Assembly (NCBI GenBank): GCA_017462485.1
Contig: JAFTRA010000024.1
Span: 1 to 34,876, forward strand
From: Clostridia bacterium
GTDB lineage: Bacteria; Bacillota; Clostridia; Oscillospirales; CAG-272
Length of the DNA stretch: 34,876 nt
Direction: 5' to 3'
The position numbers and the translations under genes were made by a program. Under the pieces are notes generated by a model. The model had not been told where the DNA came from. It searched no databases and worked only from the letters and a program-made list of their open reading frames with translations. Shown here piece after piece: positions 1-34,876 of this stretch; position 1 is the first letter of the stretch, and every line of letters begins with the position of its first letter.

Positions 1-3000
1 CAACGGTATTGCAGAAATTACTGCCCGAGGTAGTGTAGTCAAAGACCTTACCTATACTGCGTCCGTAGTCGTCGTAGTATAGCCACTCGCTGCCGACACT
101 TGCTGCCGTATGGGTATATAGTCTGTATAGCTTTCCGTAATGAGAATAAGTATATTGACTGTCAACACTGTCATATACCACGCCCGACGTGGAGTCAAAC
201 CGGAATTCATAATAAATTCTGGATACTCTGTTCTTTGCGTCGTAGTTGCTTCTAATTCTGAATGCTTGCTCGGCACTGTCTCCCTCGTACTCGTAAAACT
301 CCGAGAGTCTGTTATACGAATCGTACTTATAAACGGTAGTTCTATCGCTTATATGGTCTATATACTTATGTACCTGACCGTCCTTCGTATATTCGTACTC
401 ATATGCAAGCGTTCTGCTTTCACCCTCATTATACCATATCTCTATAAGATTTTCAAGTCTATCGTAAACATATTCTACCGAATAACCGTTTCCGTACGTA
501 ATTTTATTGAGCTTTCCGTTATTCTGATTGTACGTGTAGGTTGCGAGGGTATTGTCTCCCGCCCGAATTGAGCTTTGGTTTCCGAATACGTCGTAGTTAA
601 ACGTATATACGGTGGACCTTGTTTCGATTTTATTAAGCTTTTCGTCCGCTGTATACGTATAGCTTACCGATTCGTTGAGATAGTCTTCGATATATGTATT
701 CGGGTTGGATGCGTTCCAATAAGCCGGAGTAACCGATATTAGATTTCCTCTGTAATCGTATTCGTAAGCAAGTCCCTCACCGTCTGACATCTGAAGCTCG
801 TCTTCTCGTTCCTTTTCGGTTATAGCGGCAAGAAGGTGACCTCTTGACTCGTCGTAGAAATATCTCGTTACAGTTCCGTTAGCATCCGTAGCGCTAGTCA
901 TAACGCCGAAGATATACGAGCCCGCTTGAGTGTTGTAGGTGTAAGACGTCTTCATCGAGTTTTCGGACAGCACAAGGCTTCCGCTCGCGTTTTCCACGTA
1001 GGGAGTTACCTCTACGAGAGTGCAGAGTCCGTAAGAGTTATACGTATAATCCGTTTTGTGCTGCTCTGTCTTAACTATGAGAGAGTCCGGGTCGCTCTCC
1101 TCGTACGGATAGTCGATATCATTGTAAGCATCAACGAAATCATAGTCGATAGTATAATCTACGAGGTGGTTTGAGGTGTAGGTATAGTCTGTTATCTTAC
1201 CGTAGTTATTAGCGACTCTCGTGAGATTTCTATTTGTGTCATAGTAATAGCTCTCCGTATAAAACGCGCTCTCTGTTCTTTTAAGGAGTCCGTTTGAGTA
1301 ATAGTAGTATCTCTCGGTGTCCCCGTAGCTGTTATTAAGCACGGATATGTTATCAAACAGAGCGTATCCGTTATACTGATTTGAGTAATCGCAGTAAACG
1401 TCTATCGCTTTAACGTAGTCATACGTGTTTGTATCTGACGCTGCTGCCTCGTATTTGCAGCTTACGCTTCCGAGCACGTATTGCCAGCCCTCCGAGTAAT
1501 TATTAAAATCGAAGGTGTGACGCACGGTTACGTCATCTGACAGTCCTTGATAATATATAACGTCAACTATAATCGCAAAGCTTCCGCTTGACGTTGCGTT
1601 TTCTGCCGCATATGCAAAGCCGGAAACGGTGAAGTTCATATTGTTATTGGCGTAGTTAAAGTTATCCGTTTCGAAAATGCGCTGCTTTACGTAGCGGTCT
1701 GATGCATTTGAGACTAACTTTACGGTGTTTCCGAAAATGCTTCCCGCATTATATACGGTAGGCGCGACTCCCGTTTCTGTGACCCAGACGTCAGAGAGAC
1801 TTTGACTTGTAGCAGCAGCGCTCGTTATACCGCTTTCATCAAAGCTACCGTAGCTTACGATGCTGTGGTATGCTGTGCCTATACCCTTTGTCAAGCTTAC
1901 GTTGTCAACGAAGAGGAAGCCTGTTTGTGTAGCCGAGGAGCTTGCTTCGAATTCGATAGCTACAGCTATATTGTCTCCGCCGTTTATATTGCTTGGAACG
2001 GTGAAGCTAACCGAGGCGTCCTTATAACCGCTAAAGGTAGAGCCGCCGTCATTGAGCGAAAGCTCTTCCAAAACGTTCAATCCCGAGCCGGATATTGAGT
2101 ATATATGGGCTTTTGCGGTTATAAATTTGCAGCTATGTGACTGTATAGGAACGGTAAGCGTATATTCTCCCGCCTTCAAGAAAACGTATTGAGTCAGCGC
2201 GGAGCTTTCCGAGGCGGCGAGGTTTATCCATACGCTTTCGTTATTTACGATAGGAGCCTTTCCCGTGAACGTCCAATAAGAAGCGCTTACGGTTGAGACG
2301 TGCTCTGAAAAATCTCCGTTGAGAAGATAATTCACGTGGTCTCCCTCGGAGCTCGTGCTTAAGGTAAGGTTATTCTTTATATTTGCCTGCGTGCTGTATT
2401 CTCCCGTGGTTGCTCCGTATATTTCACCGTATCCTAGAGAGAAGGAATATACGCTACTCGCGCGGCCGCCGTCGTCAAGCACGTATCTTGTGGTTATATC
2501 GTCACTTGTACCGAGAGCCTCATCGTTTCCGGTGCTCTTTACGTCTGTGTATCCCGTGCCGTAAGTGAATGATACTGCTTGGCCGAGATTTTCGCTGTCT
2601 CCGTATTCTTCTGCTTTAGAAGCTCTGCCATTCCACCACGTGTATTTGATTCTATCGCTTGAATGGTAGTTTTCAACTTCGGAAAGCTTACCGCTTGATT
2701 CGTATGAATATTTGTAATCAACGCTGCAATACAAATCCTGCGTTGGATGCCAATAGGCACGGTAATATTCCTCTGTAGTGCAGTCAACGGTATCATCGAC
2801 GGTCATTCCAAATTCTATTTCTCGCAGATATTTGAAATTCGTTTCCGATATGCTTCCGTTATACGTAGCGGAATATCTGAAGAACATAATATCACCGCTC
2901 GCAATATTTTGCACCGCATAAAGCATTCCGTCGATATAATGGAATTTCATCGTTGTTACGGCAGTGCTGTTCTTTGGTTTGCTCGTCATTGAAAGCGGTC

Positions 3001-5044
3001 TTGAATAGGTCGAGTCGTAGATGATATTTATAGCGTTTCCAACCTGGTCTGTTATTTTAGTAAGTACCCACGCGTCAGTTACGGGAACTGTATTATCATT
3101 GGTGGCGTAAGGCGTCTTTGAAAACGTTCGTGTGATTCTTGAGTCATCGGTTATAGTTATCGTGCTTGTGCCGACGGTCATTGTTTTCCCAAGTCCGTCG
3201 TTGTCAAGATAAACGTTGCCCGATTTAAAGAATGCGTGTCCCGTTCCGTCTGCGTCCTCGTATAGATAGTACGCATCTCTTGCGTACGTTTCGGTTGACG
3301 TCGTATATTCTTTCCTTACGACCGTTTCGCAGAGATTAAGCTTGAATCCGTTTGGCAAAAACTGCTCGGTATATGCCGTATCTACGTTAGGATAAATATA
3401 TGCCTTGTTTCCATAAGCTGAATTATATACGAGAGTTGGGGTATAAGGCATAAGACTGTCTACGGTAGAAAACGTAGGAATGGTAAAGGTAAGGTTGCCC
3501 GTAGCAAGATTTACGCTTCCGCTTCCTGCCTTTCCCGCGCTCTGAGAGCTGTACGGCCAATAGTCCTCAAGTCCGTTCGTATTAACGTAGCTGAGTTCTA
3601 TATACGGAGCAGTAGATGTAGCGGTACTTTGCGTGCTTGCTGCGGTCGAAATAGGATTTGCCACTCTCACGGTCAATGGGGTATAAGCTCCATAAGAATT
3701 GAGGACTTGACGTATCGCAACACCGTAATTCTTTTCAGGTGTTTCAATCCATTTTTTCGCAATGTCTGTAATATTCCATACGTAATAAGTTCCACAGGAT
3801 GATACGTCTATAACCGTCTCGGAATACGTAGGAGCTTCGGTAGAATACCTGTTCCACGAGCTTGTTATCTCGTGTATTTGCAAGCTAGGCGTTCCGTTAT
3901 CTTGACTAGCAAGGTGTTTTATAGCTAAATTTATTTCCGAAATGTAAGAATCCTCGGGAATTTCCGGAAATTCGTTTATTTTTACATATGCGGTGGTAGT
4001 GCTATCTACGCAAATATAAGGCACCTCTTCTGCAATCGTAAACGTTCCGTTTTGCGTGCTTGTAGCGATTGTCGAATTTTCATACGTTGCCTCTACCGTG
4101 GGGTCAATAATTATAGGATATACTCTTTCCTCGCTGTTCATCCATTCGGTATCTGCGCTTACTGTCAGAGTGTATTTATTTCCGCTTCCGCTGAGTGAAT
4201 ATCTGATAGCTTCCTTTGGCGCTACCGATATATTAGAGTCGCAAGCAACGGGTGCCGGAATAGTATATATAGTCTCTTTGGTTTTCTCGTCGGAGATAAG
4301 GACGTCGCCCGATTCCAAAAGCTCCGCTGAGAGACCCTTGAGCTTCAATTCAAAGGAGTAATTATATGAATCCTTCATTTCCTTGACTACAATGTTCTCC
4401 TTTATGTCAAAGGAGCTGACTATGTATTCAAGGTCTATGCCGGAGAGAATGTTTTCGTAGTAAACCTTTGAAGATAGCTTTTCAAGATTCATCATTTTTT
4501 GAAGCTCGGTATCTTGAAGAGCGTCGCTTCCGTTGATAACCGTTCCGGGAACGTTCTTTTCACCGCCGATAAAACTCATAGTTATGCTATAATCTTTATC
4601 CTTCAAAGTGAAAATCTTGCCGCTTCCCGTTATTTTCTTCGAGAAGCGTATGCGTGAGACGGAATTTGAAAACTCACCCGAATCTTCGGAAAGCACGTTA
4701 TCTATATCCTGCCACTTTCCCGTCTCGTCCACGTAATGAACGGGGGAAGCGTACTGCGCCGCGATATACGTTCCGTCTTTCAGGTGAAAGTGCTTGACGT
4801 TTTCCTCGCGTAGCTCTTCCACTTCATAGAGAGCGCCAACGGCAACGTTTTCGCTGTCAATCGCTGAAGCCGTACTTTCGTTGCTTGCCGAGTCTTCTCC
4901 TGAAAGAGCGTCTGCTACTTCCGCGTAAATTACAGTAGGTATAACGTAGAATAGCATAACTAACGAAAGAGCCATAGATAAAACTCTTGCTCCAACGCTA
5001 TGCTGCTTCAAAAATCTTAAAATGCTCGCCATTTTCTTTTTCAT
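1..5044 (-). CDS. Giant secreted DNRLRE/YD-repeat (RHS-type) protein, partial
   Basis: The minus frame stays open from the ATG at 5044 to the window edge (1681 codons, C-terminus missing). A GGAG-type ribosome binding site sits just upstream. Residues 1-42 form a long signal peptide: a basic start, then a hydrophobic stretch ending in VIYA. Residues of about 315-455 resemble a DNRLRE domain (SWNRYSTEAPTY, then WNITDIAKKWI). Residues of about 900-1250 hold beta-sandwich, carbohydrate-binding-like segments (LLNGDFSE, WTFTG, FVDNVSL). YD repeats begin near residue 670 and dominate from about 1260 on (YEYDYRGNLISV, FNYDVFGNQ, YKYDSYNRLSEF). Known members are wall-associated or secreted and often carry a toxin or variable tip after the RHS core; that part lies outside the window. 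The role is probably cell-surface or interbacterial competition (inference). Next upstream is a small secreted protein on the same strand. Confidence 0.88.
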   Translation of the reverse strand, partial: MKKKMASILRFLKQHSVGARVLSMALSLVMLFYVIPTVIYAEVADALSGEDSASNESTASAIDSENVAVGALYEVEELREENVKHFHLKDGTYIAAQYASPVHYVDETGKWQDIDNVLSEDSGEFSNSVSRIRFSKKITGSGKIFTLKDKDYSITMSFIGGEKNVPGTVINGSDALQDTELQKMMNLEKLSSKVYYENILSGIDLEYIVSSFDIKENIVVKEMKDSYNYSFELKLKGLSAELLESGDVLISDEKTKETIYTIPAPVACDSNISVAPKEAIRYSLSGSGNKYTLTVSADTEWMNSEERVYPIIIDPTVEATYENSTIATSTQNGTFTIAEEVPYICVDSTTTAYVKINEFPEIPEDSYISEINLAIKHLASQDNGTPSLQIHEITSSWNRYSTEAPTYSETVIDVSSCGTYYVWNITDIAKKWIETPEKNYGVAIRQVLNSYGAYTPLTVRVANPISTAASTQSTATSTAPYIELSYVNTNGLEDYWPYSSQSAGKAGSGSVNLATGNLTFTIPTFSTVDSLMPYTPTLVYNSAYGNKAYIYPNVDTAYTEQFLPNGFKLNLCETVVRKEYTTSTETYARDAYYLYEDADGTGHAFFKSGNVYLDNDGLGKTMTVGTSTITITDDSRITRTFSKTPYATNDNTVPVTDAWVLTKITDQVGNAINIIYDSTYSRPLSMTSKPKNSTAVTTMKFHYIDGMLYAVQNIASGDIMFFRYSATYNGSISETNFKYLREIEFGMTVDDTVDCTTEEYYRAYWHPTQDLYCSVDYKYSYESSGKLSEVENYHSSDRIKYTWWNGRASKAEEYGDSENLGQAVSFTYGTGYTDVKSTGNDEALGTSDDITTRYVLDDGGRASSVYSFSLGYGEIYGATTGEYSTQANIKNNLTLSTSSEGDHVNYLLNGDFSEHVSTVSASYWTFTGKAPIVNNESVWINLAASESSALTQYVFLKAGEYTLTVPIQSHSCKFITAKAHIYSISGSGLNVLEELSLNDGGSTFSGYKDASVSFTVPSNINGGDNIAVAIEFEASSSATQTGFLFVDNVSLTKGIGTAYHSIVSYGSFDESGITSAAATSQSLSDVWVTETGVAPTVYNAGSIFGNTVKLVSNASDRYVKQRIFETDNFNYANNNMNFTVSGFAYAAENATSSGSFAIIVDVIYYQGLSDDVTVRHTFDFNNYSEGWQYVLGSVSCKYEAAASDTNTYDYVKAIDVYCDYSNQYNGYALFDNISVLNNSYGDTERYYYYSNGLLKRTESAFYTESYYYDTNRNLTRVANNYGKITDYTYTSNHLVDYTIDYDFVDAYNDIDYPYEESDPDSLIVKTEQHKTDYTYNSYGLCTLVEVTPYVENASGSLVLSENSMKTSYTYNTQAGSYIFGVMTSATDANGTVTRYFYDESRGHLLAAITEKEREDELQMSDGEGLAYEYDYRGNLISVTPAYWNASNPNTYIEDYLNESVSYTYTADEKLNKIETRSTVYTFNYDVFGNQSSIRAGDNTLATYTYNQNNGKLNKITYGNGYSVEYVYDRLENLIEIWYNEGESRTLAYEYEYTKDGQVHKYIDHISDRTTVYKYDSYNRLSEFYEYEGDSAEQAFRIRSNYDAKNRVSRIYYEFRFDSTSGVVYDSVDSQYTYSHYGKLYRLYTHTAASVGSEWLYYDDYGRSIGKVFDYTTSGSNFCNTV

Positions 5045-27204: not shown

Positions 27205-27256
27205 AGATAATGAAGAAAACTATAAGCAACTCTAAAATCTAAAAAGGATGATTTTA

Positions 27257-28306
27257 ATGAGAAAATACAGCTATAAAAATGAATGGAAAAAGTTGCTCAC
27301 ACCCGAGATAGTTGCTCTACTCACAAAGATACACGAATACAAAGGAGAGCAAAACAATTTCCTTGGAGCAACGAAAGACACACTTACTCATCTCGTCGAG
27401 ATAGCAAAGATACAAAGCACAGAAAGCTCTAACAAAATTGAAGGTATCTATACCTCAAGTGATAGACTGACAAAGATACTCAAGGACAAAACCCGTCCTT
27501 CGAATAGAAGCGAACAAGAAATTGCGGGTTACCGTGACGTACTTGCTTTAATTCACGAGAGTCACGATTACATTCAGCCAAAGCCGAACATGATATTGCA
27601 GCTTCATAAGATGCTCTATAAATATGGCGGCAATGAAGGCGGTATATATAAGTTCAACGACAACGAAATTCAGGAAGAAGATGCCGAAGGCAACAAAAGA
27701 ACTCGCTTTACTCCTGTGCCGGCATGGGAAACCCCCGATGCAATGGAGAAACTTTGCCAAGCGTTTGACGAAGCACTTGCAGACCAGGAAATTGATCCAC
27801 TTATTATAATTCCGATGTTCATCCTCGACTATCTCTGCATCCACCCGTTTAGTGACGGAAACGGAAGAATGAGCCGTCTCTTAACTTTGCTCCTTCTCTA
27901 CAGAACCGGATACGTCGTAGGAAAATACATCAGTATTGAAAAAGCTATCGAACAAACTAAAGCAACCTATTATGAAGCACTCGAAGATAGCTCTTACGGT
28001 TGGCACGAGAATGCGAACGACTACGGTCACTTTGTAAGATATATGCTCGGCATAGTTCTTGGAGCTTACAGAGAATTTAAAGATAGAGTACAAATCGTAG
28101 TTGAAAGCGGTTCATCAAAGACAGAGCGTGTCCGTGATATTATAAAGAATACAATAGGAAAAATCACAAAAGCGGAGATTCTCAAGGAATGCACCGATAT
28201 TAGCGATGTCACCGTGCAGAGAACACTTAACGATCTCCTCAAAAATGGAGAGATCACAAAAATCGGTGGCGGTAGATACACATCATATATTTGGAATGGA
28301 GACTAA
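27257..28306 (+). CDS. Fic family protein with own inhibitory helix and winged-helix tail
   Basis: 349 residues from the ATG at 27257; AAAGGATG overlaps an earlier ATG at 27248, so the later start is preferred. The Fic core motif HPFSDGNGR (196-204) is intact, so transfer of AMP or a similar group to a hydroxyl is expected. The (S/T)xxxE(G/N) inhibitory motif is in front of the core (SNKIEG, S58 to G63), the class II arrangement that keeps the enzyme off. The last 60 or so residues look like a winged helix (TKAEILKECTDISDVTVQRTL, then GGGRYTSYIW), found in many Fic proteins. hsdM begins 3 bp after its stop, so they are coupled. It may act as a guard or regulator for the restriction system (inference). 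Confidence 0.9.
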   Translation: MRKYSYKNEWKKLLTPEIVALLTKIHEYKGEQNNFLGATKDTLTHLVEIAKIQSTESSNKIEGIYTSSDRLTKILKDKTRPSNRSEQEIAGYRDVLALIHESHDYIQPKPNMILQLHKMLYKYGGNEGGIYKFNDNEIQEEDAEGNKRTRFTPVPAWETPDAMEKLCQAFDEALADQEIDPLIIIPMFILDYLCIHPFSDGNGRMSRLLTLLLLYRTGYVVGKYISIEKAIEQTKATYYEALEDSSYGWHENANDYGHFVRYMLGIVLGAYREFKDRVQIVVESGSSKTERVRDIIKNTIGKITKAEILKECTDISDVTVQRTLNDLLKNGEITKIGGGRYTSYIWNGD

Positions 28307-28309
28307 AAA

Positions 28310-29812
28310 ATGATTACAGGCGAGCTTAAAAATAGAATTGACGGACTCTGGGACGTGTTTGCAGCAGGTGGACTTGTAAATCCCCTCGACGTTATTGAGC
28401 AGGTAACTTACCTTATGTTCATTCGCGACCTTGATGATACCGATAACCTTCGCGCAAAGGAAGCCGTTATGCTCGGACTTCCTCACAAGAGTATATTTGC
28501 AGATAAGGTGAAAATAGGTGATCGAGAGATTGACGGAAGTCAGCTTAAGTGGTCTACCTTCCACGATTTCCCTGCAGGTAAGATGTACTCAACCGTTCAG
28601 GAGTGGGTTTTCCCCTTCATCAAAAACCTTCACGATAACAAGGATAGCGCATACTCCAAGTATATGGACGATGCTATCTTCAAAATTCCTACACCACTTC
28701 TCCTCGATAAAATCGTTACCATACTCGACGATATCTACGCTCAGATGGCGCAGATTAAGGATAGCGATATCCGTGGAGACGTGTACGAGTATCTTCTCTC
28801 TAAGATTGCGCAGTCGGGTCTTAACGGTCAGTTCCGTACCCCACGTCACATTATTCGTATGATGGTCGAGCTCATGGATCCTAAAGCGGACGAAGTTATA
28901 TGCGACCCTGCGTGTGGTACGTCAGGATTCCTTGTTGCAGCCGGTGACTATCTCAAAGAAAGGCGCAAGGAAGAAATCTTCTTCGATAGACAGAAGAAGA
29001 ACCACTATATGAACGGTATGTTTCACGGCTTCGATATGGACAGAACAATGCTCCGTATCGGTGCGATGAATATGATGACTCACGGTGTGGACAACCCCTA
29101 TATCGAGTATCGTGATAGCTTGTCCGACCAGAACCCCGATAAAGAAAAGTATTCTCTTATTCTCGCAAACCCGCCTTTCAAGGGTAGCCTTGATTACGAC
29201 ACAGTTTCCGCAGATCTTCTCAAGGTTTGCAAGACTAAAAAGACAGAACTCCTCTTCCTCGCATTGATGCTTCGTATGCTCAGAGTAGGCGGCAGATGTG
29301 CGGTTATCGTTCCCGATGGAGTCCTCTTTGGCTCGTCCACCGCGCACCAGGCAATACGCAAAGCAATCGTTGAAGATAATAGACTTGAAGCGGTAATTTC
29401 AATGCCATCAGGAGTCTTCAAACCTTATGCAGGTGTATCCACAGGTATACTTATCTTTACAAAAACAGGTCATGGCGGTACTGACAAGGTCTGGTTCTAT
29501 GACATGACCGCAGATGGACTTAGCCTTGACGATAAGCGTACACCCGTGTCAGAAAACGATATTCCCGACATTATTGCACGTTTCAAGAATCTTGGTGCTG
29601 AAGAGTCTCGCGAGCGCACAGAAAAGTCGTTCTTCGTGCCTAAGAAAGAAATCGTTGATAATGGATACGATCTTTCCATCAACAAGTACAAGAAGACCGA
29701 ATATAAGCCTGTCGAGTATGCTCCTACAAGCGAAATACTCGCAGAAATCAATGAGCTTGAAACAGAGATTCAAAAAGGGCTCGCAGAGCTTAAGGAGATG
29801 CTAAATGGCTAA
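28310..29812 (+). CDS. hsdM: Type I restriction-modification methyltransferase subunit
   Basis: 500 residues, full length. Residues of about 1-140 are the HsdM N-terminal helical domain (VTYLMFIRDLDD). The N6-adenine methyltransferase domain follows, with motif I DPACGTSGFL (199-208) for S-adenosylmethionine and the catalytic NPPF (287-290). TPRHIIRMMVELM and MPSGVFKPYAGVSTGILIF are further family hallmarks. With HsdS it methylates the recognition site; with HsdR it forms the restriction complex. Codon use (many CTC, GGT, CGT codons) is like the host genes and unlike the AT-rich genes between hsdM and hsdR. Its end overlaps the next gene by 8 bp. Confidence 0.95.
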   Translation: MITGELKNRIDGLWDVFAAGGLVNPLDVIEQVTYLMFIRDLDDTDNLRAKEAVMLGLPHKSIFADKVKIGDREIDGSQLKWSTFHDFPAGKMYSTVQEWVFPFIKNLHDNKDSAYSKYMDDAIFKIPTPLLLDKIVTILDDIYAQMAQIKDSDIRGDVYEYLLSKIAQSGLNGQFRTPRHIIRMMVELMDPKADEVICDPACGTSGFLVAAGDYLKERRKEEIFFDRQKKNHYMNGMFHGFDMDRTMLRIGAMNMMTHGVDNPYIEYRDSLSDQNPDKEKYSLILANPPFKGSLDYDTVSADLLKVCKTKKTELLFLALMLRMLRVGGRCAVIVPDGVLFGSSTAHQAIRKAIVEDNRLEAVISMPSGVFKPYAGVSTGILIFTKTGHGGTDKVWFYDMTADGLSLDDKRTPVSENDIPDIIARFKNLGAEESRERTEKSFFVPKKEIVDNGYDLSINKYKKTEYKPVEYAPTSEILAEINELETEIQKGLAELKEMLNG

Positions 29813-30407
29813 AAAGAAGGAAAAAACAGTTGCTATAGCAAAAAGAATTCACATAAAAAGACCCGGAACTACCGAAGATGTTATTGAACTAATATCAAAA
29901 ATGGAAAAAAGCATCGAAGATAAATTGCAATCCATGCGCTCCTTTGTTCCATTTGTTATAACCATAGTTACATCTCTACTCGCGTATTTATTTACAACAG
30001 CAAATGACTCATTTGATGATTTTATTTATATGATAGTCGCGTACCTTTTGATAAGCTTGTGCTCCATATTTATAGCTTATTTTCCACACAATAATTATAA
30101 AGGAAATTCAGATAAGCCAAAATGGCTTTATAAAATTCAAAAGAGTGCTGAAACGTACACAGATTTTCACCCTTGGAATCTTTCAAGTTATATTTATTTG
30201 AGCGATGATGATTTCATAGTGCAATTTGAAACTTTTGCAAACAAAAAACTATCGTCAATAGAACTAACTTCTACAAATTTTTTGAAGCAAAAAATCAACG
30301 AATATAGATACAAGAAACGTTGCATTTCTATTTCTTATATAGTGATCATTGTCGGTGCTTTAATTATGGCGTTAACATTTGGATATTATTTTGTATGCAG
30401 AATTTAG
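29805..30407 (+). CDS. Three-segment membrane protein inserted between hsdM and hsdS
   Basis: 200 residues. Basic N-terminus, a short coiled-coil-like stretch (21-45), membrane segments at about 47-65 and 73-93, a soluble part (95-172) with WNLSSYIYLSDDDFI and FLKQKINEYRYKKR, and a last membrane segment at 174-196. Two N-terminal segments, a cytosolic middle and one C-terminal segment recall small defence effectors of the PycTM or SLATT kind, but no family is assigned with confidence and no cyclase is seen nearby. AAGGAG precedes the ATG and the start overlaps hsdM, so it is translated with the restriction genes. It is strongly AT-rich compared with hsdM. Possibly a membrane-damaging back-up to restriction (inference). 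Confidence 0.75.
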   Translation: MAKKKEKTVAIAKRIHIKRPGTTEDVIELISKMEKSIEDKLQSMRSFVPFVITIVTSLLAYLFTTANDSFDDFIYMIVAYLLISLCSIFIAYFPHNNYKGNSDKPKWLYKIQKSAETYTDFHPWNLSSYIYLSDDDFIVQFETFANKKLSSIELTSTNFLKQKINEYRYKKRCISISYIVIIVGALIMALTFGYYFVCRI

Positions 30408-30416
30408 AGGAAAAAT

Positions 30417-31496
30417 ATGTCAAGATTAGGTGATTTTGTAAATATTAAAACTGGAAAACTTGATGCTAATGCATCGAGTGCCAATGGACAATATCCATTC
30501 TTTACTTGTTCGATTGAGCCATTGAGGATAGATGCGTATAGCTATGATTGTGAGTGCGTTTTGGTAGCGGGCAACGGCGATTTGAACGTTAAATACTACA
30601 ATGGAAAATTTGATGCTTATCAGCGAACATACATAATTGAAAGCAAAAACAAGGATGTTTTAAGTGTTCCGTACTTATATTGCTTTCTTGATAAATATGT
30701 TGAAGAATTAAGAAAACAATCCATTGGCGGAGTTATCAAATACATCAAGCTTGGAAATTTGACCGAGGCGCAGATACCGATGTGCTCTATATCAGAGCAG
30801 AATGAAATTGTTGCCAATTTGAACAAAGTAGACACTTTGATTTCTATCCGCAAGCAACAACTTTCAAAATTGGACAAGCTTGTAAAATCCCGATTTATCG
30901 AGATGTTTGGCGATTGTAAAGAAAGCAGAAAACTGGAAGATTACGCTATCCTCATAACAAAAGGAGCTTCTCCCAAATGGCAGGGTTTCGATTACTGTGA
31001 TGAAGGTGTGTTATTTGTTACAAGCGAGAATGTTCGTGAAGGATTTTTAGACTTATCAAAAAGAAAATACTTGCCTCAAGGTATTAATGATATTTTGCCA
31101 AGATCTGTGCTTAAAAAGAATGATATTCTTATAAACATTGTGAATGCTTCTATTGGCAGAGTAGCTATTTACGACTCTGATGAATTGGCAAATATCAATC
31201 AAGCTGTTGCTTTGGTAAGAATCAAGCCCAATGTACTCAATCTTTCGTTCTTACTCACATTTCTAAATTCGGATGAAGCTTGTGCATCTTACGATTTTAT
31301 GAAAGTCGGAGGTGACAAGGCAAATTTAAGTCTGAAAAACATATCGGATTTGAAGATTCCTGTCGCAAGTATGGAGCGCCAATTAGAATTTGAGAGCTTC
31401 AAGAAACAAGTCGACAAATCGAAATTTGAAATTGAAAAGAGCCTTGAAAAGCTCGAAACACTAAAAAAAGCATTAATACAAAAATACTTTGGGTAA
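30417..31496 (+). CDS. hsdS: Type I restriction-modification specificity subunit
   Basis: 359 residues with two target-recognition domains. The first covers about 1-120 and the second about 168-318. The conserved helical spacers are at about 123-167 (SISEQNEIVANLNKVDTLIS, then LDKLVKSRFIEMFGD) and about 322-359 (LEKLETLKKALIQKYFG). HsdS determines which split DNA sequence is methylated or cut. It is AT-rich compared with hsdM, as often seen for exchanged specificity genes. The gap after the membrane protein is 9 bp. Degenerate copies of its 3' end recur twice downstream. No invertible partner or recombinase is seen in the window. Confidence 0.93.
   Translation: MSRLGDFVNIKTGKLDANASSANGQYPFFTCSIEPLRIDAYSYDCECVLVAGNGDLNVKYYNGKFDAYQRTYIIESKNKDVLSVPYLYCFLDKYVEELRKQSIGGVIKYIKLGNLTEAQIPMCSISEQNEIVANLNKVDTLISIRKQQLSKLDKLVKSRFIEMFGDCKESRKLEDYAILITKGASPKWQGFDYCDEGVLFVTSENVREGFLDLSKRKYLPQGINDILPRSVLKKNDILINIVNASIGRVAIYDSDELANINQAVALVRIKPNVLNLSFLLTFLNSDEACASYDFMKVGGDKANLSLKNISDLKIPVASMERQLEFESFKKQVDKSKFEIEKSLEKLETLKKALIQKYFG
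31434..31496 (+). repeat. hsdS 3'-end repeat, intact copy A
   Basis: This is the coding end of hsdS (EKSLEKLETLKKALIQKYFG and stop). A relic similar over about 60 bp (roughly 80 percent identical by eye) is at 32241-32301, and a shorter one at 31952-32000. The match to the shorter relic continues past the stop to about 31515. Confidence 0.7.
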
Positions 31497-31566: not shown

Positions 31567-31962
31567 ATGGAATATAAAAATATGTCTGATTCAGAACTTG
31601 CTTCGGTAATGTTAAGTTATATCAATCGTGTTAAACAACTAAAAAATGCAATTTCTCAATATATAAATTATACTGATGGAGTTTGTATGCGTCCTCAACA
31701 AATAAAAGACGAATATCGTGAATTGAAGGATAAACTCCGCAATGATGCTAAATATTTGTACTTAGTAAAGAATAGAAATGGCAGTGTTTTATATACCAGT
31801 ATATTTACACCAAGCATTCGTGAAGCTTCAGCATTTGGATTTACAGTGCCAGTCAACGCAGCCATAAATTACGAAATGTATTCTGCGGTTGAGGAGGCTT
31901 ATTATAAATTGAGAAAATATTATTCTCTTGATAAGTGGGAAGAACTGGTTGAAAAACATTAA
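31567..31962 (+). CDS. Hypothetical 131-residue cargo protein
   Basis: No family is recognised. The first 65 residues look helical (DSELASVMLSYINRVKQLKN, then DEYRELKDKLRNDAKYLY), the middle has a beta-like stretch (GSVLYTSIFTP), and the end is helical again. Soluble, no signal peptide. AAAGGGA lies in front of the start. It is flanked by two degenerate direct repeats of the hsdS end and following bases (31466-31515 and 31952-32000), and its stop codon lies inside the second. This layout suggests the gene was inserted or duplicated as a cassette. Confidence 0.6.
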   Translation: MEYKNMSDSELASVMLSYINRVKQLKNAISQYINYTDGVCMRPQQIKDEYRELKDKLRNDAKYLYLVKNRNGSVLYTSIFTPSIREASAFGFTVPVNAAINYEMYSAVEEAYYKLRKYYSLDKWEELVEKH

Positions 31963-32000
31963 TAAAAAATACTTTGGATAAGGTGAAAATATATGATTGG
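31952..32000 (+). repeat. hsdS 3'-end repeat, relic C
   Basis: ACATTAATAAAAAATACTTT matches ACATTAATACAAAAATACTTT-like hsdS sequence with one base lost, and the likeness continues through GGxTAA to TATGATTxGG, where the next gene starts. The copy thus supplies the stop of the 131-residue gene and the ribosome binding site and start of the 83-residue gene. Confidence 0.65.
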
Positions 32001-32244
32001 AAAAGTCGTCAAAGTTAATTACCGTCGCGGATTAGTAATATTTGAAGATGATATTGGTGACTACGGTTATTTTGAAGTATTAGGTAGTGATGATTTTAAA
32101 CCCGACGAGATAATTATTGGCAACCTTCACTCTTTGGGAGGTGAAACTATTATCAAGCAAAGCACCAAAGAAAAGGTTGATATTTGCATAGAAGACTATG
32201 GGATGTCCTATAAAATCGCGATGGAAATGGTGTTTAGAAAATGA
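31993..32244 (+). CDS. Small hypothetical protein (83 residues)
   Basis: No family is recognised. The sequence alternates in a beta-strand pattern in its first half (GKVVKVNYRRGLVIFEDDIG, then YGYFEVLG) and could be a small barrel of OB or SH3-like kind; the end is helical (GMSYKIAMEMVFRK). AAGGTG lies 7 nt before the ATG. The start region sits in the hsdS-end relic C, and the stop touches relic B. AT-rich like the other cargo. Possibly a DNA-mimic, nucleic-acid-binding or anti-restriction helper, but nothing in the sequence proves it. Confidence 0.6.
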   Translation: MIGKVVKVNYRRGLVIFEDDIGDYGYFEVLGSDDFKPDEIIIGNLHSLGGETIIKQSTKEKVDICIEDYGMSYKIAMEMVFRK

Positions 32245-32319: not shown

Positions 32320-32883
32320 TTGAAAAATAATGATTTTATTAAAATGGTAGACGAAGATATAATTAGATGTGATGTTGTGATAACAACTCGTCAAGGTGTT
32401 ATGGACTTGTTAAACGAATTAATGGGTAAGTATTCTAAGGTGTCTAATAACTTCCCCAATATAGAGATGAATTCGCTATTGTTTAAGATGCATCCTAATG
32501 TTCCTATGGAAAATATAAGAACGATTCAAGGATTCTTGAAAGCATATAGACTCAATAACTGCGAAGACTATAAATTCGATGAATCGGTACATAATGGAAT
32601 TAATGTTATAACCAACATTTCAAACAATAACGAAAATACTATTAATTTACAAAACTTTTCGGAAGTTCGTAATAAAATAGAAGAAATGAGCTCATTAACA
32701 GATTCAGAAATTGATGAAATTTTATCTAAGATTGATGAACTCGAAAATATCGTTAATTCTTCAGATCGCAAAACAAAAAAATGGGATAAAGCAAAAGGTA
32801 TTATAAATTGGATTGCCACCAAAGGAGTCGATGTAGCAATGACGGTTATTCCGCTCTTGATGAAAATCGGTGCAACATCTTAA
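32320..32883 (+). CDS. Hypothetical 187-residue cargo protein with N-rich linker and hydrophobic tail
   Basis: The start is probably the TTG at 32320, 9 nt after AAGAAAGG; the next ATG (32344) would remove eight residues. Residues 1-88 appear helical. Residues 92-112 are asparagine-rich with alternating hydrophobic residues (NVITNISNNNENTINLQN). Residues 113-148 look like a helical hairpin or coiled coil (SEIDEILSKIDELENIV). Residues 160-183 are amphipathic to hydrophobic (IINWIATKGVDVAMTVIPLL) and could contact or enter the membrane. No family is recognised. It lies 20 bp before the small membrane protein and its Abi-alpha partner, in the same direction, and may belong to that system. Confidence 0.6.
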   Translation: MKNNDFIKMVDEDIIRCDVVITTRQGVMDLLNELMGKYSKVSNNFPNIEMNSLLFKMHPNVPMENIRTIQGFLKAYRLNNCEDYKFDESVHNGINVITNISNNNENTINLQNFSEVRNKIEEMSSLTDSEIDEILSKIDELENIVNSSDRKTKKWDKAKGIINWIATKGVDVAMTVIPLLMKIGATS

Positions 32884-32903
32884 TATTAGCGAGGTAGTAT
32901 ACT

Positions 32904-33125
32904 ATGGAAAAAGAAATTATCGTTGCGATAATAAGTGCGAGTGGTGTTGTTTTGGCGGCACTGATAGCGGGTGCTTTTTCGTTAGTCAAAAGAAGCAAAG
33001 AAAACAAAAATACCAATATAAATATTAAACAAAAACAAACTCTTTTTAATAAAGGTAATCAAGTAGGAATTCAAAACAACTATGGTTCCAACAACAGCAC
33101 GACAGGAGACAAAAAAGATGAGTGA
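32904..33125 (+). CDS. Single-span membrane protein with C-terminal QVGxQNNYG motif
   Basis: 73 residues. Residues 5-28 form one membrane helix (IIVAIISASGVVLAALIAGA), followed by a basic KRSK that would keep the tail in the cytoplasm. Residues 41-61 (IKQKQTLFNKGNQVGIQNNY and G) match residues 7-27 of the next protein at 15 of 21 positions. The end is a polar N/S/T tail. GAGGTAG lies 6 nt before the ATG, and the last 8 bp overlap the next gene. A membrane anchor that displays a motif shared with the soluble neighbour suggests direct interaction through this motif, by beta-stacking or amyloid-like templating (inference). No named family. Confidence 0.75.
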   Translation: MEKEIIVAIISASGVVLAALIAGAFSLVKRSKENKNTNINIKQKQTLFNKGNQVGIQNNYGSNNSTTGDKKDE

Positions 33126-33198
33126 TGAATTAGTCATAGAACAGAAACAAGGTTTGGGTAATGCTGGAACGCAGGTAGGCGTTCAAAACAACTATGGT
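33024..33198 (+). repeat. Duplicated motif-coding segments in adjacent genes
   Basis: 33024-33086 (end of the membrane-protein gene) and 33136-33198 (start of the Abi-alpha gene) encode the same 21-residue motif. They share an identical 17-bp stretch (TTCAAAACAACTATGGT at 33070-33086 and 33182-33198). The rest differs at many silent sites, so the copies are old or under selection at the protein level. Confidence 0.75.
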
Positions 33199-33930
33199 CT
33201 TTCTCCTGTTGAGGCAACTAGGATGGCGTTTGAAATTTTTAGAGAGTATTACCCGCAACTGAGAGAAGAAGCACTCAAAGAATTAAACAATTTAGTTGAA
33301 GAGAAACTGAGTTCAATTCCTCAAGAACTTATAGACTCACCCAAGCCAAGAATTGCTGTTCCAACATTGCAAAATGCAAGCATTACAGAAGAACGAGAAG
33401 TTAGGGAACTTTATGCAAATCTTCTCGCAAATTCAATGAACAAAGTAGTGAAAAATGGTGTTCATCCTGGCTTCGTTGAAATCATCAAGCAACTTTCGCC
33501 AGATGAGGCTAAAATAATACGGTATCTGCGTATTCATAAACGAATTCCTACGTTAGGATTAAAGATAGATAAAACAGATTCTTCTCATGTAGTCTATGTT
33601 AAAGAGTTTTCAAATGTGCCGGAATTATCAATGTGTGAAAATATATATGATAGCCAAAAATATATTGATAACCTGGTTAGATTAGGGTTGGTAGAGCGAT
33701 CACCGGATGGTACATACATATCGAACGAAAGTGTATATGAGCCACTTAAAAATCACCCATTCATTAAAAACAAGTATCAAAATATTGAGAAGCAATCTGC
33801 GACAATCGATAATTTTAGTAAAATAGATTACGTAAAAGGATACTGTGAGTTGACTTCTTTTGGAGAGAGTTTTTGCTCGATTTGCCTTGAAACACAAAAA
33901 GTTATCATATTAAAAGCGCAAGAAGGTTAA
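33118..33930 (+). CDS. Abi-alpha (DUF4393-like) abortive-infection protein with N-terminal QVGxQNNYG motif
   Basis: 270 residues from the ATG at 33118 (AGGAGA 8 nt before it); a longer frame starts at 33082 but lacks a ribosome binding site. Residues 7-27 are the Q/N/G-rich motif shared with the preceding membrane protein. Residues of about 75-160 match the Abi-alpha/DUF4393 pattern: KPRIAVPTLQNASITEE, REVRELYANLLANSMNK, HPGFVEIIKQLSPDEAKII, then a winged-helix-like YIDNLVRLGLVERSPDG. Abi-alpha proteins are linked to abortive phage infection; their mechanism is poorly known. The overlap with the membrane-protein gene argues that they work together. hsdR starts 4 bp after its stop, so it sits fully inside the restriction operon. 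Confidence 0.78.
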   Translation: MSDELVIEQKQGLGNAGTQVGVQNNYGLSPVEATRMAFEIFREYYPQLREEALKELNNLVEEKLSSIPQELIDSPKPRIAVPTLQNASITEEREVRELYANLLANSMNKVVKNGVHPGFVEIIKQLSPDEAKIIRYLRIHKRIPTLGLKIDKTDSSHVVYVKEFSNVPELSMCENIYDSQKYIDNLVRLGLVERSPDGTYISNESVYEPLKNHPFIKNKYQNIEKQSATIDNFSKIDYVKGYCELTSFGESFCSICLETQKVIILKAQEG

Positions 33931-33934
33931 AACT

Positions 33935-34876
33935 ATGACCAACTTTGATTTCCTAAAACAAACAACCGATTTTAACACGTTTAGTGACGTTGCGATATCG
34001 GCGGAAAAGTTAATATACATAGATCCGGCGGCATGTGTATTTAATTGCCGACGTGCTATGGAATTTGCGGTCAAATGGATGTATTCAGTTGACCGCGACC
34101 TCGTTATGCCTTATGAGGATAATCTACATCTACTTATAAACTCCGAAGAGTTCCGAGATATCGTTGGAAACGACGTTTGGCGCAGAATGGATTTGATACG
34201 CAAGATGGGTAACGACGTTGCTCATAAGAGCAAGGAGATTGCAGAAGATCAAGCAGAACTCTGCCTTGAGAACCTTTTCGTCTTCCTCGATGAAGTGGCA
34301 TATCTCTACGCGCCCGAATACACCGAACAGCATTTCGACAAGAGCCTACTTAAGAAGGACGAGCCTACGACCACACCCGTAGCAGCCGTTCCCGATATTG
34401 ACTTTGAGGCATTACTCAAGGAAAACGAAGCACTCAAGGCTGAACTTACCGCACGTCGTGAGGAACAGCAGCAGACCTACGTTCCGAAGCCTCTTGATAT
34501 TTCCGAATATAAGACGAGAAAGATATACATCGACTGGATGCTCCGCGATGCAGGATGGACCCTTGGCAAGGACTGGGAAAACGAGGTTGAGCTCTACGGT
34601 ATGCTGAATCAGAGCGAGGTTGGTTATGCCGATTACGTTCTCTTTGACGATTCTCATAAGCCTCTTGCAGTTCTCGAAGCAAAACGCACCTGCGTTGACG
34701 TTGCCAAAGGCAGACAACAGGCAAAGCTCTATGCAGACCTTCTCGAGCAGAAATACGGCAGAAGACCCGTTATATTCCTTTCAAACGGTTTTGATACACG
34801 CATCTGGAATGACAAATACTATCCCGAGAGACGCGTGGCATCTATCTATTCAAAGCGCGACCTTGAAAAGCTCTTC
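33935..34876 (+). CDS. hsdR: Type I restriction endonuclease subunit, N-terminal part (cut by window edge)
   Basis: 314 codons are visible and the frame is open at the edge. Residues of about 20-125 resemble the DUF4145 domain (FNCRRAMEFAVKWMY, then IRKMGNDVAHKSKEI), common at the start of one HsdR subgroup. A coiled-coil linker (160-180) follows. From about 190 the HSDR_N nuclease domain begins, with the PD-(D/E)xK residues D233 (YADYVLF) and E248-A-K250 (LAVLEAKRT). The helicase motor should lie beyond the window. It translocates and cuts unmodified DNA with HsdM and HsdS. Its codon use resembles hsdM and the host, unlike the cargo just upstream. AGAAGG precedes the ATG. Confidence 0.92.
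   Translation, partial: MTNFDFLKQTTDFNTFSDVAISAEKLIYIDPAACVFNCRRAMEFAVKWMYSVDRDLVMPYEDNLHLLINSEEFRDIVGNDVWRRMDLIRKMGNDVAHKSKEIAEDQAELCLENLFVFLDEVAYLYAPEYTEQHFDKSLLKKDEPTTTPVAAVPDIDFEALLKENEALKAELTARREEQQQTYVPKPLDISEYKTRKIYIDWMLRDAGWTLGKDWENEVELYGMLNQSEVGYADYVLFDDSHKPLAVLEAKRTCVDVAKGRQQAKLYADLLEQKYGRRPVIFLSNGFDTRIWNDKYYPERRVASIYSKRDLEKLF

Follow-up and report, generated by a model that had tools for sequence, protein, structure and literature searches.

A two-gene unit encoding a small membrane protein and a larger Abi-type protein, each bearing a copy of the same short Q/N/G-rich motif, was identified in the 34,876-nucleotide stretch of Clostridia bacterium DNA analyzed here (the window) and in 14 further loci that span several bacterial groups, prophages, and an Escherichia coli P2-like element. 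In every further pair the small protein carries the motif near its C terminus and the product of the adjacent gene carries it at the N terminus, and 13 of the 14 small proteins have a membrane span. This unit, found in bacteria and some viruses, probably serves phage defense. We put at about 50% the probability that it works as a two-protein abortive-infection module, in which the matched motif couples the two proteins and infection leads to their clustering and to membrane damage.

The window ends in a type I restriction-modification (RM) operon that houses the pair between hsdS and hsdR, with three small open reading frames (ORFs) separating hsdS from the pair. The features are as follows.

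28310..29812, + strand: hsdM, type I methyltransferase (Pfam N6_Mtase and HsdM_N; PADLOC MTase_I, E 1.6e-183)
30417..31496, + strand: hsdS, type I specificity subunit (Pfam Methylase_S, E 2e-24)
32891..32894, + strand: GAGG, likely ribosome-binding site of the 73-aa gene (sequence)
32904..33125, + strand: 73-aa single-span membrane protein with the motif in its C-terminal tail (ORF; Kyte-Doolittle scan)
32916..32972, + strand: predicted membrane-spanning segment, residues 5-23 of the 73-aa protein (Kyte-Doolittle scan)
33024..33086, + strand: shared motif, copy in the 73-aa protein, residues 41-61 (local alignment)
33104..33108, + strand: AGGAG, likely ribosome-binding site of the Abi-alpha gene, within the upstream 73-aa gene (sequence)
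33118..33930, + strand: Abi-alpha family protein, 270 aa (PF14337, E 6.6e-53; PADLOC PDC-S47)
33136..33198, + strand: shared motif, Abi-alpha copy, residues 7-27 (local alignment)
33199..33336, + strand: short module following the motif, judged helical by eye, common to LPO_1073/Vpar_1526 proteins (BLASTP, hhalign)
33262..33885, + strand: Abi_alpha domain, PF14337 (Pfam)
33935..34876, + strand: start of hsdR (DUF4145 and HSDR_N), which exits the window end (Pfam, PADLOC)

The two genes of the pair overlap by 8 bp if Abi-alpha translation begins at position 33118, where the ATG is preceded by AGGAG; another ATG in the same frame lies further upstream, at 33082. The Abi-alpha protein matches PF14337 over residues 49-256 with 180.1 bits (cut-off, 29) and the PADLOC model PDLC05026 (PDC-S47) with residues 1-259 on positions 1-256 of 257 (E 4e-92). 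The 73-aa protein has no Pfam family above cut-off and, at an E threshold of 0.01, matches nothing in PADLOC or PHROGs.

Further genes lie around the pair. A Fic-family protein is encoded upstream of hsdM (27248-28306; PADLOC SoFic, E 2.6e-40), and a 200-aa ORF with weak, subthreshold matches to membrane-protein families (29805-30407) forms an insertion in the RM operon between hsdM and hsdS. Two of the small ORFs between hsdS and the pair (31567-31962, 131 aa; 31993-32244, 83 aa) have no family above cut-off. The third, a 187-aa ORF that begins with TTG and lies immediately before the pair (32320-32883), has an N-rich stretch, a helical-looking region, a hydrophobic C-terminal tail, and a partial PADLOC PDC-M14B match (E 6.9e-5), and is possibly another membrane-active defense gene.

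A sequence-only reading of this locus had described a 21-residue motif common to a single-span membrane protein and the overlapping Abi-alpha gene product, and each of these observations holds when quantified. The motif copies, IKQKQTLFNKGNQVGIQNNYG (residues 41-61 of 73 in the small protein) and IEQKQGLGNAGTQVGVQNNYG (residues 7-27 of 270 in Abi-alpha), are identical at 15 of 21 positions with a BLOSUM62 local score of 78. None of 20,000 shuffles of the small-protein tail reached this score and the top shuffle scored 49; a chance or low-complexity origin of the match was rejected on these grounds. The 73-aa protein has a single hydrophobic stretch (residues 5-23, KD19 mean 2.59) followed by a K/R-rich and then Q/N/G-rich tail, with a net charge of +3 over the 15 residues after the stretch, so that the positive-inside rule predicts a cytoplasmic motif. 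The window Abi-alpha protein shows no hydrophobic stretch in residues 1-110 (maximum KD19, 0.15). All these topology calls come from simple hydrophobicity scale scans (KD19) rather than from a trained topology predictor.

How widely does such a pair recur? The pattern TQ[VI]GxQNN[YF] was found in 36 stretches of the genome contigs, 30 of them within an ORF of at least 35 aa and 6 without an ORF match. Twelve of the 30 ORFs are no longer than 110 aa with the motif near the C terminus, and for nine of these a second motif copy lies near the start of the directly following ORF; the other three (L046, L059, and L065) have no second copy after them. The nine pairs come from Lachnospiraceae and Eubacterium (L039, L049, L058), Faecalibacterium (L057), Pseudoflavonifractor (L073), Selenomonas and kin (L069, L072), Candidatus Ruminimicrobiellum (L038), and Fretibacterium (L048). 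The Faecalibacterium locus (L013/L057) was first reached when 295 genomes of the taxonomic order were searched with the PADLOC model. After hsdS, this locus encodes a 72-aa membrane protein with the motif at its end and a 268-aa protein with the motif at its start, and hsdR follows; the 268-aa partner is an LPO_1073/Vpar_1526 protein (NF045477), not Abi-alpha. Searches that used either the LPO_1073 family or the L057 protein as query yielded ten loci, with one of two E. coli plasmids counted, and six of them encode a small protein with a matching motif: L057 again (as L074), L075, L076, L082, L083, and L084, the last being the E. coli P2-like pair (81 aa and 285 aa). The motif types differ widely between pairs (QIGxQNNY; QIGxxTI in L075 and L076; SNxQxGxxxxI in L082-L084), though the motif is alike in both partners of each pair.

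The remaining four of the ten loci (L078-L081) have no small partner in the fetched stretch, and their LPO_1073 proteins have an N-terminal hydrophobic segment of their own, with KD19 values of 1.61 (L078), 2.57 (L079), and 2.74 (L081) in the three that were scored. Three of these proteins (L079-L081) are long (about 660-725 aa), come from one genus with a C-terminal LPO_1073 match of 89-92 bits, and adjoin a nucleotidyltransferase-like gene (by eye); they may not be defense genes, perhaps representing a housekeeping branch of the family.

Absence of the motif from homologous pairs had been named beforehand as the result that would speak against a functional pairing; what we found is its presence in 14 further adjacent pairs. 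The pair thus recurs, though usually with another partner, since 13 of these 14 partners score above the NF045477 cut-off and are LPO_1073/Vpar_1526 proteins rather than Abi-alpha. The exception is L048, a pair that has probably decayed, where the small protein has no membrane span and the partner, a stub of 98 aa, gives no NF045477 match. Nine of the 15 pairs were ascertained via the motif (the window and eight from the pattern scan), L057 via both routes, and five via the domain; related loci among the 15 are not independent. Repeated loci were counted once (L013 and L074 are the L057 locus, L085 equals L083, and L086-L090 repeat the L084 protein at 98-100%), and L077 was dropped as below cut-off. 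The analysis leaves out the other E. coli plasmid (H68) and three fragment loci (L005, L014, and L015).

The matching of motifs is specific to cognate partners. When the C-terminal 38 residues of every small protein were aligned with the first 42 of every partner over the 15 pairs, cognate scores averaged 59.7 against a permuted mean of 37.4 (SD, 3.2), and none of 100,000 permutations reached the cognate mean; permuting only within the three motif subtypes raised the mean to 50.3, again with 0/100,000 reaching the cognate mean. Against partner residues 61-102, small-protein tails scored on average 18.1 (maximum, 33). The cognate partner ranked top in 8/15 rows and 8/15 columns, so the specificity is statistical rather than absolute within the large QNNY subtype. 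At the 188 residues that are identical within the 15 pairs, the two genes use the same codon 93 times and a synonymous one 95 times, against 104.1 same codons expected under independence, the expectation being drawn from the codon use of both genes per locus, a small sample. Codons at identical residues are thus randomized, meaning that the match is maintained at the protein level, and recent DNA duplication was rejected as the source of the motif. At the sequence level, then, recurrence, cognate specificity, and protein-level maintenance bear out the earlier suggestion that the shared motif marks a functional pair.

Topology is likewise shared across the pairs. A hydrophobic stretch starting at residue 3 to 17 is present in 14 of the 15 small proteins (KD19, 1.31-2.92), and in 13 of these 14 the 15 residues after the span carry a net positive charge, which places the motif in the cytoplasm by prediction. 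The small protein of L084 has a charge of -2 after its first stretch and, by eye, a second hydrophobic stretch, leaving a single-span, tail-in topology unclear for this one. No comparable hydrophobic stretch occurs in residues 1-110 of the 15 motif-bearing partners (maximum KD19, 0.72). In Mantel tests over 12 pairs (leaving out the window, L048, and L072), the small-protein tail tracks both the head (r = 0.41, 54/20,000) and the body (r = 0.51, 1/20,000) of the partner, while the span part tracks neither (r = 0.04 and 0.10, respectively). Since the span part does not covary with the partner, the membrane span itself may be generic.

The window Abi-alpha protein looks like a chimera, joining an LPO_1073-like N-terminal module to the Abi_alpha domain at residues 49-256. 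Its residues 5-73 align with the LPO_1073 partner of L073 (BLASTP, 25/70 identical, E 5e-13), and hhalign matches residues 3-145 to the LPO_1073 alignment (E 4.3e-12); the match to NF045477 itself, residues 27-76 on profile positions 1-49, is 13.2 bits and below the cut-off of 45. Profiles of canonical Abi-alpha (8 proteins) and LPO_1073 (11 proteins) show no similarity by hhalign (E 0.49), a result still compatible with a common fold, and the best solved-structure matches were at chance level (E 0.17, A5; E 0.52, A7). In a genome of the same genus (L008), an Abi-alpha gene sits in the same hsdS-side slot, and an hsdR-like gene begins after it (hsdR by eye from the first residues); this Abi-alpha has an N terminus with a KD19 of 1.42 and neither motif nor small partner. 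The simplest reading of these sequences is that the N-terminal module is able to replace the ordinary Abi-alpha N terminus, its membrane partner coming along.

The eight canonical Abi-alpha proteins are moderately hydrophobic in residues 1-110 (highest KD19, 0.74-1.42), with the KD19 peak outside the N-terminal region in three of them (L007, L010, L011). A membrane element in cis is at best suggested for the Abi-alpha proteins of L008, L003, L004, L006, and L009, a weaker case than for LPO_1073. No such motif was seen by eye in alignments of the eight other Abi-alpha proteins and three phage Abi-alpha proteins, and the window is the sole Abi-alpha/motif pair found, so that the Abi-alpha version rests on one locus and a motif-spanning PADLOC model. 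That model, PDLC05026, matches the whole window protein and also the motif end of L038, L048, L057, and L058; as it covers the motif, other Abi-alpha pairs may exist. For LPO_1073/Vpar_1526 (NF045477), no described function was found in the literature.

The genomic contexts of the pairs are of the kind expected of defense genes. Five of the 15 pairs (window, L048, L057, L073, and L075) lie between hsdS and hsdR, the hsdS of the last four being assigned by eye; the L069 pair adjoins a DNA methylase gene and the L038 pair a KAP NTPase gene. Two pairs (L082 and L083) are on prophage-like viral contigs, where their neighbors are phage genes of tail and lysis type (labels by eye), and the L084 pair is beside the portal gene of the P2-like element, the portal side being one border of a described P2 hotspot of anti-phage genes (PMC9122126). 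The prevalence of the families searched is low. A 1301-base stretch of L084 is at least 80% present in 6 of 5426 E. coli genomes; the closest Abi-alpha protein matches occur in 4/398 genomes of the phylum, PF14337 in 2/98 relatives, and PDLC05026 in 8/295 genomes of the order, own genome included in each case. NF045477 was found in 4/394 and 4/398 genomes and the N-terminal module in 1/391, which is the own genome. Viral contigs searched with the window Abi-alpha protein gave no relative, and a Pseudoalteromonas plasmid match is without the motif.

Among known systems, the nearest are the NLR-BELL pairs of bacterial amyloid signaling (BASS), a field said to have been founded by Dyrka et al. 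(2020). In BASS pairs, the motif is C-terminal on a membrane-helix protein and N-terminal on its partner, and the genes are adjacent or overlapping (PMC7889193). All 15 pairs described here share this layout of a short motif common to adjacent or overlapping gene products, and they resemble BASS also in having many motif families with RHIM-related members (PMC7889193, PMC8086366, and PMC12261475). They differ in several respects. No NLR (STAND/NACHT) carries the N-terminal motif in any of the 15 pairs, where it is instead borne by Abi-alpha or LPO_1073 proteins of 260-370 aa; no BELL domain is recognized, the small partner having a membrane helix and few residues to spare for a bundle, and four small partners that were scanned have no Pfam family above cut-off. 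Hosts here include gut Bacillota and E. coli prophages, as against the filamentous bacteria of the BASS pairs, and 5 of the 15 pairs lie within type I RM operons.

An nSTAND1 NTPase with the motif was found only in L061 (Okeania), outside the 15. This protein (2913-4121) has a doubled motif at its N terminus (QIGIQNQ...TQIGIQNNF), and a nearby 89-aa protein (4376-4645) has a doubled copy as well. By sequence L061 looks like a motif-matched STAND pair, which links the motif family to STAND proteins.

The RHIM and fungal PP motifs have a G-phi-Q-phi-G core (PMC7885112), and the window copies, G-N-Q-V-G and G-T-Q-V-G, share its Q-hydrophobic-G followed by N; unlike that core, they have N or T at the first phi and so miss it at one position. 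Pfam RHIM was not among the matches to E 1 or E 10 in the proteins scanned, bearing in mind that HMMER filters drop very weak matches. Given no NLR, no recognized BELL, no RHIM match, and a core missed once, the pairs are not assigned to BASS or RHIM. Abi-alpha (DUF4393, PF14337) of Enterococcus faecalis prophage 6 (EF2833) is described as a true Abi gene causing premature lysis, and the discussion there takes up holin timing, the proton-motive force, and the permeability of the membrane (PMC6356687). The window protein has the same C-terminal domain; in the E. faecalis case, one gene is described as giving the phenotype (PMC6356687), while the window protein has a motif-plus-helix N terminus and a dedicated membrane partner. 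LPO_1073/Vpar_1526 (NF045477) proteins share the N-terminal module and, in 13 pairs, the arrangement with a small membrane partner, but their C-terminal domain has no detectable profile similarity to that of Abi-alpha. Membrane damage or homotypic assembly is also known from bacterial gasdermin/CARD-like systems and from TIR or CBASS effectors with transmembrane partners; unlike these, the two genes of the window show no protease, CARD, TIR, or nucleotide synthase. Type II toxin-antitoxin operons are alike in gene order and overlap only. In the literature searched, preprints being outside its scope, no description of a motif-matched pair of a small protein with Abi-alpha or LPO_1073 was found.

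In the abortive-infection module that we favor, the 73-aa protein would be anchored in the inner membrane and extend its tail into the cytoplasm, and the cytoplasmic Abi-alpha would carry the motif-plus-helix module in place of the moderately hydrophobic N terminus of relatives such as that of L008. The shared motif would supply the membrane link in trans, like with like, probably by stacking of beta-strands; the alternative to such a link is a membrane element in the same chain as the Abi-type domain. We infer that the proteins come into physical contact through the motifs, that phage infection is the trigger causing the Abi-alpha side to change state or cluster, and that the motifs then nucleate a joint, amyloid-like assembly at the membrane. 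The membrane would be compromised, and the infected cell would die or lyse before phage maturation. If the motif acts as a pair-specific code, Abi-alpha and LPO_1073/Vpar_1526 domains would be exchangeable behind the same N-terminal module.

The executioner could be either the small protein or the Abi-type partner. In NLR-BELL pairs, the proposed executioner is the membrane-helix protein with the C-terminal motif (PMC7889193), and by analogy Abi-alpha or LPO_1073 might be the sensor, with the small protein a mini-executioner templated through the motif into a pore. Such a reversal of roles would fit the motif positions and gene adjacency or overlap, which are the same as in BASS pairs (PMC7889193), the N-terminal motif on the nSTAND1 NTPase of L061, and the covariation of the small-protein tail, but not of its span, with the partner body. 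Yet apart from the motif a small protein comprises only about 35-60 residues, not much to build a helical bundle from, and the E. faecalis Abi-alpha phenotype came from a plasmid carrying that gene (PMC6356687); we consider the reversal unlikely, though worth keeping in mind. The small protein might otherwise be an antitoxin-like keeper, the motif pair holding a toxic domain inactive at the membrane until infection frees it. A small upstream gene, close to or overlapping the next as in toxin-antitoxin operons (overlap in 11/15 with assigned starts), and the tight cognate motif specificity are what such a keeper would predict, but the L008 relative occupies the same hsdS-side slot without motif or partner, so that a keeper is not required in every case, and we hold this role to be distinctly improbable.

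The location of 5 of the 15 pairs between hsdS and hsdR raises the question of whether the pair is an independent defense unit or serves the RM system, for example by anchoring or controlling HsdR. The other ten pairs lie elsewhere as far as the fetched loci show, including prophage-like contigs and the P2-like element, and a plain Abi-alpha fills the same slot in L008, making a service role very doubtful. Finally, the motif is Q/N/G rich and its short core occurs in unrelated proteins (21/22 viral stretches in a lysin-like protein and 13/36 genome stretches in a Flavobacteriaceae receptor-like one), as a functionless low-complexity accident or recent local duplication would have it; the shuffles (0/20,000), the cognate specificity in 15 pairs, and the randomized codons strongly disfavor this at the sequence level, and we give it hardly any credence.

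Returning to the motif-coupled module, the pairs may represent, as a tentative proposal that we rate somewhat below even odds, an undescribed class of two-protein immune modules found across bacterial groups and prophages, in which a diversifying, pair-specific Q/N/G code for homotypic docking or templating links a minimal membrane protein to interchangeable Abi-type domains, amyloid-like but without an NLR. If so, motif-templated immune signaling would reach beyond the NLR systems of filamentous bacteria and include very small two-gene cassettes carried by other bacteria and by phages, Abi-alpha and LPO_1073/Vpar_1526 would gain a mechanism, and the pairs would offer a natural set of matched and mismatched motifs for testing homotypic recognition. 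The E. coli P2-like pair makes the module testable in laboratory strains.

The motif also occurs outside such pairs. The idea that it is a generic phage or surface sequence was rejected; no pair was seen in viral contigs searched with the core and T-containing patterns. The first core pattern hit 22 stretches there, 21 in one lysin-like protein (SQIGGQNNYG) and 1 in a tape-measure-like protein (by eye); the T-containing pattern hit 6, of which 5 have an ORF match, all in one unrelated protein of 414-416 aa that reads 184 aa where the locus is cut. Among the 36 stretches in genome contigs, 13 belong to a Flavobacteriaceae receptor-like protein (label by eye). A 500-aa Marinilabiliales protein (L056, 5845-7347), whose N-terminal part looks HNH-like by eye, carries TQIGTQNNYY behind that part, at residue 149. 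In Moraxella (L063), a repressor-like protein with HTH and peptidase S24 domains (1920-2654) has TQIGQQNNY between both domains, and it is followed by a 96-aa protein (2657-2947) with TQIGTQNNF.
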